A DNA stretch of 48,220 nucleotides from an uncultured Lachnospiraceae bacterium (lineage in GTDB: Bacteria > Bacillota > Clostridia > Lachnospirales > Lachnospiraceae), in assembly GCA_947626365.1 (NCBI GenBank), contig CANQRW010000020.1:1-48220 (forward strand), written 5' to 3'. The notes beneath the pieces were generated by a model, which saw nothing but the letters and a program-made list of their open reading frames with translations, was not told the DNA's origin and searched no databases. Numbering within the stretch: position 1 is the first letter of the stretch; every line of letters starts with the position of its first letter. The position numbers were made by a program, and so were the translations under genes. Below are positions 36,919-40,845 of the stretch, piece by piece.

Positions 36919-37905
36919 CTATTTCAAAGATTTTCTCATACGAATATCATCGCCATACAGCGGAACAATATTATAGCTCCCCACGATTCTGGAAGAAACC
37001 CGGTCCGAATAGGTATCTCTCAGCATGGAAACCGACAGATTGGTAGAGATAACCGTACCTTTATTTCTCACCAGCCGCTCATTGATACAGTAGAAAAGCT
37101 GGGAGGACACAAAAGAATTATTCAGCTCCGTGCCCAGATCGTCAATAATCAGCAGGTCGCAGTCCAGAATGTATTGGCACATATCCTGGGTTTCTTCCTC
37201 TGCCTCGTAGTGAAACTTATTTTTGGAAAAAATATCAAACAGGTCGCCGGACGACAGATAGACCACCGACTGATACCGGTCGATCAGTTCCCTGGCTATG
37301 CAGTGAGTGAGAAATGTCTTTCCCACTCCGGTACCTCCGGTAAAGAGAAGATTATCCTTCTTTCGGGAAAAGTTCTCCACAAATTCCCAGCACCAGTCAT
37401 AAACCTGGTGCATGTACCGTGCCACAGTCATATCCAGTCCGGGAATCACCCGGCTGTCATCATAAACGTCAAAGGTAAAAGCAGAAAAATTCTCTCTCTT
37501 AAGCACATCCTCGATGCTGGACTGGGCGTAAAGCAGCTTCATCTGTTCCCTGCGGAAACACCGGCATCTCTCATGATTTACATATCCTGTATCGTGACAC
37601 TCCGGACAATGGTAACGAATCTCCATGTAATCTTCCGGATACCCGGAAGCCGTAAGCAGATCCGCCTTCCGCCCGCGAAGCTGCCGAATCCGTTCCCGTA
37701 TCTCCCCGGCTGCCTTCTCATCCTCAGCCAGAATCAGCCGGGCCTGTTGGGCTGCCAGCGTACTCAGCTCTTCCTCCCACTCCTTTACCTGGGGCAGTTT
37801 TTCATAGACCTCCTGCCTGCGCAGCTCCTGCTCATATCTGTCCTGATACTGCCGCTCATTATAGATTCTCATAATTGCCTGATACTGAGAATTGCTAAGT
37901 GACAT
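36919..37905 (-). CDS. DnaC/DnaI-like helicase loader ATPase
   Basis: 328 residues; ATG 37905 follows GGGAGAGAG. The N terminus (about 1-90) is a charged helical region. A zinc-binding module follows, CPECHDTGY ... CRCF (about 100-120), as in DnaI. The AAA+ domain has FTGGTGVGKTFLTH near residue 190, LLIIDDLGTE near 255 and a sensor-1 region with ISTNLS near 292. Such proteins load the replicative helicase at origins or restart sites. It is the second gene of an operon with the DnaD-like gene (15-nt gap). Confidence 0.88.
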   Translation of the reverse strand: MSLSNSQYQAIMRIYNERQYQDRYEQELRRQEVYEKLPQVKEWEEELSTLAAQQARLILAEDEKAAGEIRERIRQLRGRKADLLTASGYPEDYMEIRYHCPECHDTGYVNHERCRCFRREQMKLLYAQSSIEDVLKRENFSAFTFDVYDDSRVIPGLDMTVARYMHQVYDWCWEFVENFSRKKDNLLFTGGTGVGKTFLTHCIARELIDRYQSVVYLSSGDLFDIFSKNKFHYEAEEETQDMCQYILDCDLLIIDDLGTELNNSFVSSQLFYCINERLVRNKGTVISTNLSVSMLRDTYSDRVSSRIVGSYNIVPLYGDDIRMRKSLK

Positions 37906-37920: not shown

Positions 37921-39009
37921 TTACTGCTCTCCGAGACGCTCCTTCAGCTTCTCAAAAACAATCGCGTCATAATTGGTATCTCTCTGTTCAAAATTATGAA
38001 ACTTATTCCTGCTTCCGGCTGTCCTGGCTCCTTGATTCACCGCCTGAGGATGGGCGCTTTCCCTGCCCGAATCCAGTTTCCGCACATCATCCATCCCCCG
38101 GATCCCGGCCTTTTTCCACCCGCTCAGAATCCTGTCCGCATAAGCAAAGCTGGGCTTCTGCGTAGCCCTCAGAGTCCTGCCGCACGCCTCCAGCACCAAC
38201 TCTTTGGAAAAGCCCCATTCCTGAAACCATCTGCGGATCATCTCCATCTCGGAATCTCCGGGCCGTCTGTCACTGAGGCCGAAGGCCTTCATGACAGCAA
38301 ACGCTTCTTTTGAAAATGACGCCGTGTACTGCTTCGCGGCCTCGATCGTTCCAATCCCTCTCTCATGCCAGTTAAGGGCCACCGTCTCCAGATAACGGAT
38401 GCTGTAATGACCGCCCTGAACGCAGTATTCCACCAGATACTCCAGAAGCTCCGGAGGCATCCTGAGCCCATCGTACAAGTAAGCGAACACTTCGCATTCC
38501 CTGGGTGTAAATACCTTATTCATGTATTTCTGCGCTATGTACAGAAGCTGCGTAAAATCCTCCTCATCTGCCAGACGGCTTACCTGCTCCGGCGTATACA
38601 ACGTTCTCTGCGTCGGTATTCTGGTATCCGACACTGCAGAATACTCCTTCTCTTCCGGTTGGGAAATCAAGTTTTTCTGCTCGGCCGGAACCGCTTCTTC
38701 TTCCTTCGCCTCCGCTTCCGCCTTCACGGGTTCCGTATCCTCCTGTACCGGATTGTCTTCTGTATCTCCCGCCGTCTCCTCGCGCCCCTTCACAAGCACG
38801 CCGATCCTCTCCCAATACGTCATGGCCCTGCGGATATCCGACTCGGTGTGATTCAGCGCATCCGCAAGTTCCACCTCCGTCACTGCCCTGTCCTGATGCC
38901 GCAGAAGATATAGATATACTTTCACATATTCGCCGTTAGCCGCCGGCATATACCGATCAATGAATTCATCCGCTACCAGTGTTGCTCTGACACTCAGATT
39001 ACTTTTCAT
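37921..39009 (-). CDS. DnaD-like replication initiation protein
   Basis: 362 residues; ATG 39009 follows GGAGAATT. The N-terminal winged helix (about 15-75, YLYLLRHQDRAVTEVELADALN) is followed by a Glu/Ala-rich linker. Two DnaB_2/DnaD-type helical domains then follow (about 140-220 with FTPRECEVFAYLYDGLRMPPE, and 245-310 with WGFSKELVLEACGRTLR). It works with the downstream DnaI-like ATPase in primosome assembly. Its promoter region carries two clusters of DnaA boxes. Confidence 0.88.
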   Translation of the reverse strand: MKSNLSVRATLVADEFIDRYMPAANGEYVKVYLYLLRHQDRAVTEVELADALNHTESDIRRAMTYWERIGVLVKGREETAGDTEDNPVQEDTEPVKAEAEAKEEEAVPAEQKNLISQPEEKEYSAVSDTRIPTQRTLYTPEQVSRLADEEDFTQLLYIAQKYMNKVFTPRECEVFAYLYDGLRMPPELLEYLVEYCVQGGHYSIRYLETVALNWHERGIGTIEAAKQYTASFSKEAFAVMKAFGLSDRRPGDSEMEMIRRWFQEWGFSKELVLEACGRTLRATQKPSFAYADRILSGWKKAGIRGMDDVRKLDSGRESAHPQAVNQGARTAGSRNKFHNFEQRDTNYDAIVFEKLKERLGEQ

Positions 39010-39046
39010 AATTCTCCACTCTCCCCGCTTTTTTTGCTCTTTTTAT

Positions 39047-39055
39047 ACTATACCA
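39047..39055 (-). promoter_or_regulatory. Extended -10 promoter of the dnaD-dnaC operon
   Basis: On the minus strand TGGTATAGT gives an extended -10, about 40 nt before ATG 39009; the -35 region is weak. Confidence 0.55.
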
Positions 39056-39102
39056 CATGTTTTTTCAAAAGAAAATAGGGGGCTTTCTCCCACCAGCGCC
39101 TA

Positions 39103-39129
39103 TGTGGATAATGTGGATAATGTGAATAG
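39103..39129 (+). promoter_or_regulatory. DnaA-box cluster, proximal (two perfect, one degenerate)
   Basis: TGTGGATAA occurs at 39103-39111 and 39112-39120, directly followed by TGTGAATAG. These are the complement of the DnaA box TTATCCACA, joined head to tail with a 9-bp period, about 50-80 bp upstream of the dnaD -10. Confidence 0.8.
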
Positions 39130-39228
39130 TTCTTTTCTTCATATATGAAAACAATGTCGGAATATGCTATATTTCCCATAAAATTCCATGTTGCCCGACA
39201 GCTTCCGGCACATCTTATGTTAATTAAA

Positions 39229-39285
39229 AAATCCACATAGTTTTCCCTGCCGCTTTGTTGAAAACTATGTGGATAATGTGGATAA
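39229..39285 (+). promoter_or_regulatory. DnaA-box cluster, distal (two perfect, one degenerate inverted)
   Basis: TGTGGATAA at 39268-39276 and 39277-39285, ending 1 nt before the murC stop codon; AAATCCACA at 39229-39237 is a degenerate box in the other orientation. The DNA between the two clusters is AT-rich. Confidence 0.75.
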
Positions 39286-39286
39286 G

Positions 39287-40666
39287 TTACATTCCCAGCA
39301 GATTTTCTCCGACTTTCACTATATCTCCGGCCCCCATAGTTATCAACAGGTCACCGTTAATACAATTTTCTAAAATAAATTTTTCAATTTCATCAAAGGA
39401 GCCAAAATAATGGGCTTTCGTACCCAGTTTCTCAATCCGGTCCGCAATATCCTTTGAACTGACTCCCAGATTGTCTGTCTCCCTGGCTGCGTAGATATCC
39501 GCCAGAATCACCTCATCTGCCGCAGACAGCGCCTGCGCGAACTGATCCAGGAACGCTTTTGTTCTGGTATACGTATGGGGCTGAAAGACACACCACAGCT
39601 TCCTGTGGGGATAATTTTTCGCCGCCGCCAGCGTTGCCTGAATCTCCTGGGGATGATGGGCATAATCATCGATAATGGTAACTCCGCAGATCTCGCCTTT
39701 CTTCTCAAACCGGCGATTGGTTCCGGAAAAAACCGCCAGCCCTTTCTTAATGTCCGCCATGCCGATCCCCAGAGCCTGGCAAAGGGCAATAGCCGCCAGA
39801 GCATTGTACACATTATGTTCTCCCGGCACCCCCAGGGTAATCCGGTCAAGTCTCTGACCGTCAGCCACCAGATCAAAGCTGGCCCTCGCGAACTTATCAT
39901 AAACAATATCCGCCGCCTGATACTGAGCCCCGGCGTTTCTGCCAAACGTGGCGACCCTGCAGGGAAGTCCCTCCACAATCTCCTGCCAGCGGTCAATATC
40001 CGCTCCGATCACCACCAGGCCTCCTTCCGGCACCAGCGATGCAAAGCGGCGGAAGGAACTGCGGATATCATCGATATCCTTGAAGAAATCCATATGATCC
40101 TCTTCAATATTCAGGATAATCTCCATATTGGGGAAGAAAGAAAGGAAGCTGTTGGTATACTCACAGGCCTCTGTCACGAACAGTTCAGACCCGCCTACCC
40201 GGATATTCCCTCCGATGGAATTCAGAATGCCTCCCACGGAAATCGTGGGGTCCTGACCTGACGCCAGGAGGATCTCCGTCACCATAGAGGTCGTCGTCGT
40301 CTTTCCGTGAGTACCGGCTATCGCCGCCGCATACTGGTAATTTCTCATCAGCTGTCCCAGAAGTTCTGCTCTGGAAAGCATGGGAAGACCCTTTGCCGCA
40401 GCTGCGGCGTACTCCGGATTGTCCGGATGGATCGCCGCCGTATAAACTACCACACAGATGCCTTCTATTATATTCTCGGCCTTCTGACCGATGAATATCC
40501 TGGCTCCTTTCTGCTGCAGATGCTCCGTCAGCTCGGAAGCATGGGCATCGGAGCCTGATACCGTGAAACCCTCAGACATAAGAATCTCAGCCAGGCCGCT
40601 CATACTGATGCCGCCGATTCCGATGAAATGAACGTGTTCCGGTCTGTCAAAGTTGATCTGATACAT
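39287..40666 (-). CDS. murC: UDP-N-acetylmuramate--L-alanine ligase
   Basis: 459 residues from ATG 40666, 5 nt after AAGGTGGG. The N-terminal Rossmann motif HFIGIGGISMSGLAEI, the ATP loop GTHGKTTTTSMVTE near residue 112, the central-domain acid NIEEDHMDFF near 177 and the FQPHTYTR segment near 345 are all in order. It adds the first residue, L-alanine, to UDP-MurNAc in the cytoplasm. It lies upstream of the dnaD operon on the same strand, separated by the DnaA-box region. Confidence 0.97.
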   Translation of the reverse strand: MYQINFDRPEHVHFIGIGGISMSGLAEILMSEGFTVSGSDAHASELTEHLQQKGARIFIGQKAENIIEGICVVVYTAAIHPDNPEYAAAAAKGLPMLSRAELLGQLMRNYQYAAAIAGTHGKTTTTSMVTEILLASGQDPTISVGGILNSIGGNIRVGGSELFVTEACEYTNSFLSFFPNMEIILNIEEDHMDFFKDIDDIRSSFRRFASLVPEGGLVVIGADIDRWQEIVEGLPCRVATFGRNAGAQYQAADIVYDKFARASFDLVADGQRLDRITLGVPGEHNVYNALAAIALCQALGIGMADIKKGLAVFSGTNRRFEKKGEICGVTIIDDYAHHPQEIQATLAAAKNYPHRKLWCVFQPHTYTRTKAFLDQFAQALSAADEVILADIYAARETDNLGVSSKDIADRIEKLGTKAHYFGSFDEIEKFILENCINGDLLITMGAGDIVKVGENLLGM

Positions 40667-40845
40667 AGTACCCACCTTATATACTCATACTTTGCGCCGC
40701 AGTCCGGGCAGCGGAAACAGGCAGCCGCCCAAACTAAAGCTAATTTATCTTATGATACAAGAAGGCAAACGGTATTGCCCCCGTAATAATGCATTCCTCT
40801 TGATTTCTACCGCTTTTTCACTCTAAAGTCAATACTTTCACCGGA

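Follow-up and report, generated by a model that had tools for sequence, protein, structure and literature searches.

The window analysed here (the whole stretch of 48,220 bases) contains a non-coding gap of 277 bp between murC and dnaD, which spans positions 39010-39286 exactly. All genes around it are encoded on the minus strand: murC (39287-40675) is the upstream neighbour of dnaD (37921-39009), whose product shows a DnaB_2 domain (PF07261), and downstream of dnaD lies dnaC/dnaI (36919-37905), which encodes an AAA+ helicase loader according to IstB_IS21 and Bac_DnaA ATPase domain matches. The DnaA box TGTGGATAA was found four times in the gap as an exact match on the plus strand, at 39103-39111, 39112-39120, 39268-39276 and 39277-39285; the rest of the window contains no exact match. 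When one mismatch is allowed, the window shows 28 matches, whereas 100 shuffled sequences averaged 8.8 and never exceeded 17.

The exact boxes form two contiguous pairs with a period of exactly 9 bp, and the two pairs have a 21-nt unit in common. Array 1 (plus strand, 39268-39285) is located right after the murC stop codon, and array 2 (plus strand, 39103-39120) on the promoter side of the gap. Each pair is accompanied by an additional plus-strand box with two mismatches. In array 1 this is TGTTGAAAA (39256-39264), recognized by eye 12 nt from the pair, a position that holds a box with at most one mismatch in a number of the census loci described below (offset pattern 3,12,24). The third box of array 2, TGTGAATAG (39121-39129), was found by the scan in the same 9-bp register and in relatives is often exact or shows a single mismatch. 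The scan therefore confirms what the initial annotation described: two contiguous pairs at 9 bp made of four exact boxes, accompanied by degenerate ones, within 277 bp. The gap combines DnaA boxes beyond chance near a predicted promoter, as sought in DnaA-regulated promoters, with a density of boxes outside oriC, as in titration clusters of the datA type. Comparison with Rfam gave three matches, each below the gathering score (E 0.2-1). A one-mismatch reverse box, TGTTGATAA, is also present at 39340-39348, near the 3′ end of murC; its place is constant in many relatives, which may be explained by constraint on the murC coding sequence.

Conservation was analysed in a named set of 80 dnaD loci, in which 700 bp upstream of the gene were scanned on either strand for boxes with at most one mismatch. 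At least four boxes were found in 75 of the 80 loci; the other five (L116-L120) show none or one and have no murC in the flank. The gap was aligned in 73 of the named loci and the window (74 gaps), leaving out L116-L120 as well as L096 and L108, whose contigs end early; the murC end of L081 was placed by hand and the listed dnaD start was used for ten loci. In 68 of the 74 aligned gaps, the array 1 pair begins 3-4 nt past the first nucleotide of the murC stop codon, and in 59 the separation between arrays 1 and 2 is 155-157 bp. Among 33 non-redundant gaps, the boxes reach means of 1.90 (array 1) and 1.59 bits per column (array 2), against 0.28-0.66 in the spacers.

To avoid best-hit bias, a census was made of 110 genomes of the window's family, probably Lachnospiraceae, from 109 genera, which share ancestry and are not independent. 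It comprises 107 loci, as dnaD was found in 108 genomes, two lacking a match, and the contig of G044 begins at dnaD. The murC gene is upstream of dnaD in 106 of the 107 loci, a contiguous 9-bp pair (summed mismatches of two or less) is present in 91, and 88 show at least three boxes in the orientation of dnaD; Markov-shuffled gaps showed a contiguous pair in 0/107 loci in 100 rounds. The arrangement is not universal, since 16 loci have no 9-bp pair and five of the census loci have no box at all: L218, L241, L245 and L265, with gaps shorter than 92 nt, and L252, with a gap of 390 nt. Outside the family, neither a contiguous pair nor three boxes were found in the 600 bp upstream of dnaD in any of 27 loci, obtained from 30 genomes of which three belong to the same order, and murC is upstream of dnaD in only one of them. 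Absence of the boxes from close relatives had been named as evidence against a DnaA-binding site; they are present, and G097, of the same genus as the window, carries pairs with 1-2 mismatches (L199), with no exact contiguous pair among the matches listed.

Between array 2 and dnaD, a promoter was predicted on the minus strand. Its extended -10, TGGTATAGT (39047-39055), is supported by consensus and conservation and lies 47 nt from the end of array 2, and a 17-nt spacer separates it from a predicted -35 region (TTTTCT, 39070-39075) within the conserved block CCTATTTTCTTTT (39067-39079). A CYATT-type block is found 23-24 nt from the end of array 2 in 63 of the 74 aligned gaps, and an extended -10 of the TGnTAnnnT pattern 46-47 nt from it in 65; six other gaps show the extended -10 at 45, 55-57 or 67 nt and three show none. 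Across the same 74 gaps, array 2 is separated from the dnaD start by 89 to 381 nt. Among the 93 census loci retained after filtering, a predicted extended -10 with at least five of six letters was found in 88 (shuffled mean 10.9), and the nearest box is located 39-93 nt upstream of the predicted -10 in 85, compared with 37.8 on average and at most 50 under permuted pairing, the promoters being predicted by consensus and both this offset window and the phase classes given below having been set after viewing the data. The predicted -35 begins with TT in more than 90% of the 93 loci, and TTGACA is matched at four or five of six letters in 36. The boxes thus hold a conserved position relative to a promoter, as in DnaA-regulated promoters, the promoter here being a predicted one. 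A promoter block common to dnaA and dnaD was not established when the region upstream of dnaA was inspected by eye in the window's genome and three relatives.

The position of the boxes relative to the predicted promoter is also helically phased. This was analysed in 43 loci, filtered from the census, whose gap is long and whose triple array is usable; triple arrays were used because single boxes are confounded by the 9-bp register, and nearest-box phase concentration (R) is indeed highest at 9.5 bp. The distance from the proximal end of the triple array to the -10 is 46-47 nt in 10 loci, 54-57 in nine, 65-68 in 18 and 76 in two, and the other four are off-phase, at 59, 60, 82 and 98 nt. In 42 loci, R is 0.80 at 10.0-10.5 bp and 0.60 at 9.0 bp, and the maximum R in 2000 jittered controls was 0.52. 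Placed on a murC tree, the distance classes need a minimum of seven changes, so that the shifts are unlikely to reflect one event, although the resolution of the tree is poor, with 20 of its 102 inner branches starred. In short gaps, found in 18 of the 93 loci, array 1 itself adjoins the predicted promoter, 49-51 nt away in 11 of those; the boxes therefore stay with the promoter in either layout. The array 1-to-promoter distance is less well phased (R of 0.40 at 10.5 bp and 0.56 at 11 bp). Distances between the two arrays are quantised near 11 bp in the 31 census loci left after filtering (R of 0.69, null 99% of 0.50; 0.50 at 10.5 bp), which is suggestive of looping between arrays 1 and 2.

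Array 1 overlaps a likely intrinsic terminator of murC, predicted on the minus strand at 39231-39274, with a perfect stem of 15 bp (arms 39260-39274 and 39231-39245), a loop of 14 nt and a T run. The hairpin has a predicted energy of -19.5 kcal/mol (z -5.8). The box at 39268-39276 lies mostly within its 5′ arm, and the other arm contains an inverted degenerate box; this overlap of one pair with the terminator was absent from the initial annotation. A stem of at least eight pairs with a T run is present in 135 of 148 loci, only about twofold the 51-69 found in shuffled controls. Covariation (T-A, G-C, A-T and others) was observed in 33 non-redundant sequences at three stem positions immediately outside the box and makes the terminator likely, while seven positions inside the box hardly vary, which argues that the box is under a constraint of its own beyond base pairing. 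Stable stem-loop, T run and covariation, the features of an intrinsic terminator, are thus all found here.

The dnaA gene of the window's genome is located on a different contig from the dnaD gap and has its own boxes, two of them exact and 11 nt apart from start to start. Its product retains the C-terminal DNA-binding domain of DnaA (PF08299). In seven of 11 relatives, dnaA and either the site or dnaD are on one contig, at distances of 155 (G109), 239 (G026), 276 (G127), 278 (G156), 286 (G036), 519 (G070) and 667 kb (G117). For G085, a circular contig would place the two about 257 kb apart and a linear one 3.3 Mb apart, and in the remaining three relatives the two are on separate contigs. Other box-rich regions were observed around apparent dnaA genes: L128 and L129 show more than 20 exact boxes in a few kb, flanking the gene on both sides, whereas boxes around dnaA are sparse in the window's genome. 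G491:C26 is also very rich in boxes. Exact contiguous pairs away from dnaD were found at about 35, 39 and 51 kb from dnaA in G124, G026 and G117, respectively, and, assuming a circular contig, at about 66 kb in G070.

Across the draft genome (3.50 Mb, 144 contigs), 63 exact boxes were found, against 13 matches of the reversed control pattern. Exact contiguous pairs number four: two in the dnaD gap, which is the sole site with two of them, one upstream of secA and one inside a pseudouridine-synthase gene. The latter (L001:1501-1575, G000:C1:149615-149689) is accompanied by a third exact box within the coding sequence (PF00849). The pair upstream of secA belongs to a second recurrent cluster of DnaA boxes, often beside hpf and secA (L002:1501-1571, G000:C17:23523-23593), which is also found in L012, L014, L017, L025, L026, L029, L032, L033, L035, L036, L038 and L138. 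It consists of a contiguous pair, usually followed 12 nt further by a degenerate box of the GGTGcATAA type, and, at 52-54 nt from the second box, one more. Several relatives show this geometry next to other genes (named by eye, only those of L002 being checked with Pfam), and it may therefore be an independent DnaA-binding element. The initial annotation had singled out the contiguous spacing as tighter than that of usual origins. However, it is the commonest tandem spacing in a sample of 60 family genomes, accounting for 62 of 98 tandem exact boxes with gaps of 0-12 nt (counted by hand, 17 of the 98 from G491), and is therefore not peculiar to the dnaD site. At least 115 of 200 family genomes contain exact contiguous pairs, in relation to 39 of 293 genomes of a class-wide draw that includes some family members. 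This draw gave 46 tandem places, 37 of them non-family, and none of the 20 inspected among those 37 is located between murC and dnaD.

Control of dnaD-dnaC transcription by DnaA is not the only reading of these data. The cluster could mainly be a reservoir that titrates or inactivates DnaA, its nearness to dnaD being incidental, an option raised in the initial annotation alongside operon regulation. The concentration of two exact contiguous pairs at this one place of the genome, the distance of the site from dnaA (155-667 kb in the seven relatives) and the recurrence of a cluster often at hpf-secA, which shows that such clusters exist away from dnaD, are in line with it, as are published excerpts reporting that deletion of six Bacillus subtilis clusters leads to early initiation (PMC5295017) and that Escherichia coli boxes accumulate near oriC (PMC12371093). 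A titration site, however, could work without any promoter or helical phasing, whereas array 2 keeps a fixed relation to the predicted -10, and the cluster keeps its place, with murC upstream of dnaD in 106 of 107 loci; we consider a reservoir unlikely, though the strongest of the alternatives. Rather improbable is a main role as a murC terminator or read-through switch, in which DnaA, or the RNA hairpin alone, would govern whether murC transcription reaches dnaD. It would account for the location of a box within the 5′ arm of a strong stem that precedes a T run and for the recurrence of such stems above shuffled controls (135/148 against 51-69), but the stem covers one of the four exact boxes, leaving outside both the second array 1 box and the whole of array 2, and the near-invariance of the positions inside the box, while three outside covary, is a constraint that the hairpin leaves unexplained.

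The boxes could also be bound by a protein other than DnaA, which seems very unlikely from the exact match to the consensus box, the clustering of the same box upstream of dnaA and the DNA-binding domain of the genome's own DnaA. Least probable of all, at a very low likelihood, is that the gap serves as a second origin or as a site of origin unwinding. A T-rich block does follow the DnaA boxes at the gap, but wherever found (67 of 74 gaps) this block starts 22-34 bp from the box, while DnaA-trios are expected within 16 bp according to the available part of PMC8287927; no trio was found within that distance of a box at the dnaD gap. Furthermore, dnaA has a separate box cluster of its own, and the skew analysis proposed in the initial annotation for locating a nearby origin revealed no lasting switch within the window, so no origin is seen at the gap and this candidate was rejected. 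Direct control of transcription by DnaA explains both the promoter lock and the helical phase, neither of which is needed by titration, an origin or a terminator.

Comparison with known systems gives a similar picture. Promoters controlled by DnaA include those of dnaA-dnaN (autoregulation), E. coli nrdAB and Caulobacter gcrA, ftsZ and mipZ, and the dnaD gap resembles them, as presented in the available sections of the review PMC8203912, in having boxes at the promoter and in a target tied, like several of theirs, to replication or the cell cycle. In contrast to the promoters described in those sections, its arrays are contiguous at 9 bp and placed in whole helical turns, and dnaD is not among the direct B. 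subtilis DnaA targets given there, with no mention of the gene (PMC8203912). The B. subtilis DnaA-box clusters are likewise dense non-origin boxes in a Firmicute, whereas the boxes of the dnaD gap are tied to one operon and a predicted promoter (PMC5295017, as excerpted). E. coli datA and DARS are also short non-coding DnaA-box clusters outside oriC; however, they alter the nucleotide state of DnaA, and the dnaD cluster adjoins a predicted promoter. Head-to-tail boxes beside a T-rich block recall the basal unwinding system of oriC (boxes and DnaA-trios), from which the gap differs by having no trio-like block within 16 bp and by not being at dnaA. No paper that ties DnaA boxes to dnaD, or that describes the same target and geometry, was found in searches of the open-licence PMC literature, although DnaA-controlled promoters as such are already known.

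The murC-dnaD gap would then be the control region of the dnaD-dnaC operon, and its comparative features point to direct, face-of-the-helix control of transcription by DnaA at array 2 as the probable explanation. DnaA on the contiguous array 2 boxes, a short distance upstream of a sigma-A-type promoter with a weak -35 beginning with TT and a strong extended -10, would act from a fixed face of the helix on RNA polymerase at the predicted dnaD promoter. Array 1, 155-157 bp further upstream in most named relatives, would add DnaA, and the murC terminator that it overlaps may insulate the operon from murC read-through. Activators often act upstream of the -35 on one face of the helix; given the position of the array, activation therefore appears to us a little likelier than repression, as a matter of judgement. 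The proposal of the initial annotation that DnaA regulates the helicase-loader genes is thus strengthened by comparison, through the promoter lock in helical phase, the boxes beside the promoter in short gaps and the family-wide occurrence, while its titration option has become less likely.

DnaA level or activity would thereby set the supply of DnaD and of the helicase loader. YabA is another limiter of DnaA besides DnaD, and none of 40 family genomes shows YabA at the cut-off (five have matches below it), which a Bacillus subtilis control reaches. In B. subtilis, DnaD limits cooperative DnaA binding, according to the available parts of PMC5295017 and PMC13220808, on which the idea of a homeostatic loop is based. 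Together with the result for YabA in the 40 genomes, this makes feedback between DnaA and dnaD plausible. A more tentative extension, which we regard as possible but hold with less confidence than the control itself, is that RNA polymerase at the dnaD-dnaC promoter is held in phase with a DnaA oligomer occupying the contiguous 9-bp boxes, that DnaA sets DnaD and the loader while DnaD limits DnaA, and that this constitutes the main initiation feedback of the family.

The finding suggests a possible feedback loop between the start of replication and the making of the helicase-loading machinery. It bears on the question of how initiation is coordinated in Firmicutes that lack a recognisable YabA. 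If true, a family-wide circuit from DnaA to dnaD-dnaC would create a direct connection between the initiator and the loading machinery and would represent a homeostatic loop in a dominant gut family. Furthermore, the whole-turn shifts of the arrays across genera would offer a natural experiment on how DnaA bound contiguously to double-stranded DNA might contact RNA polymerase.
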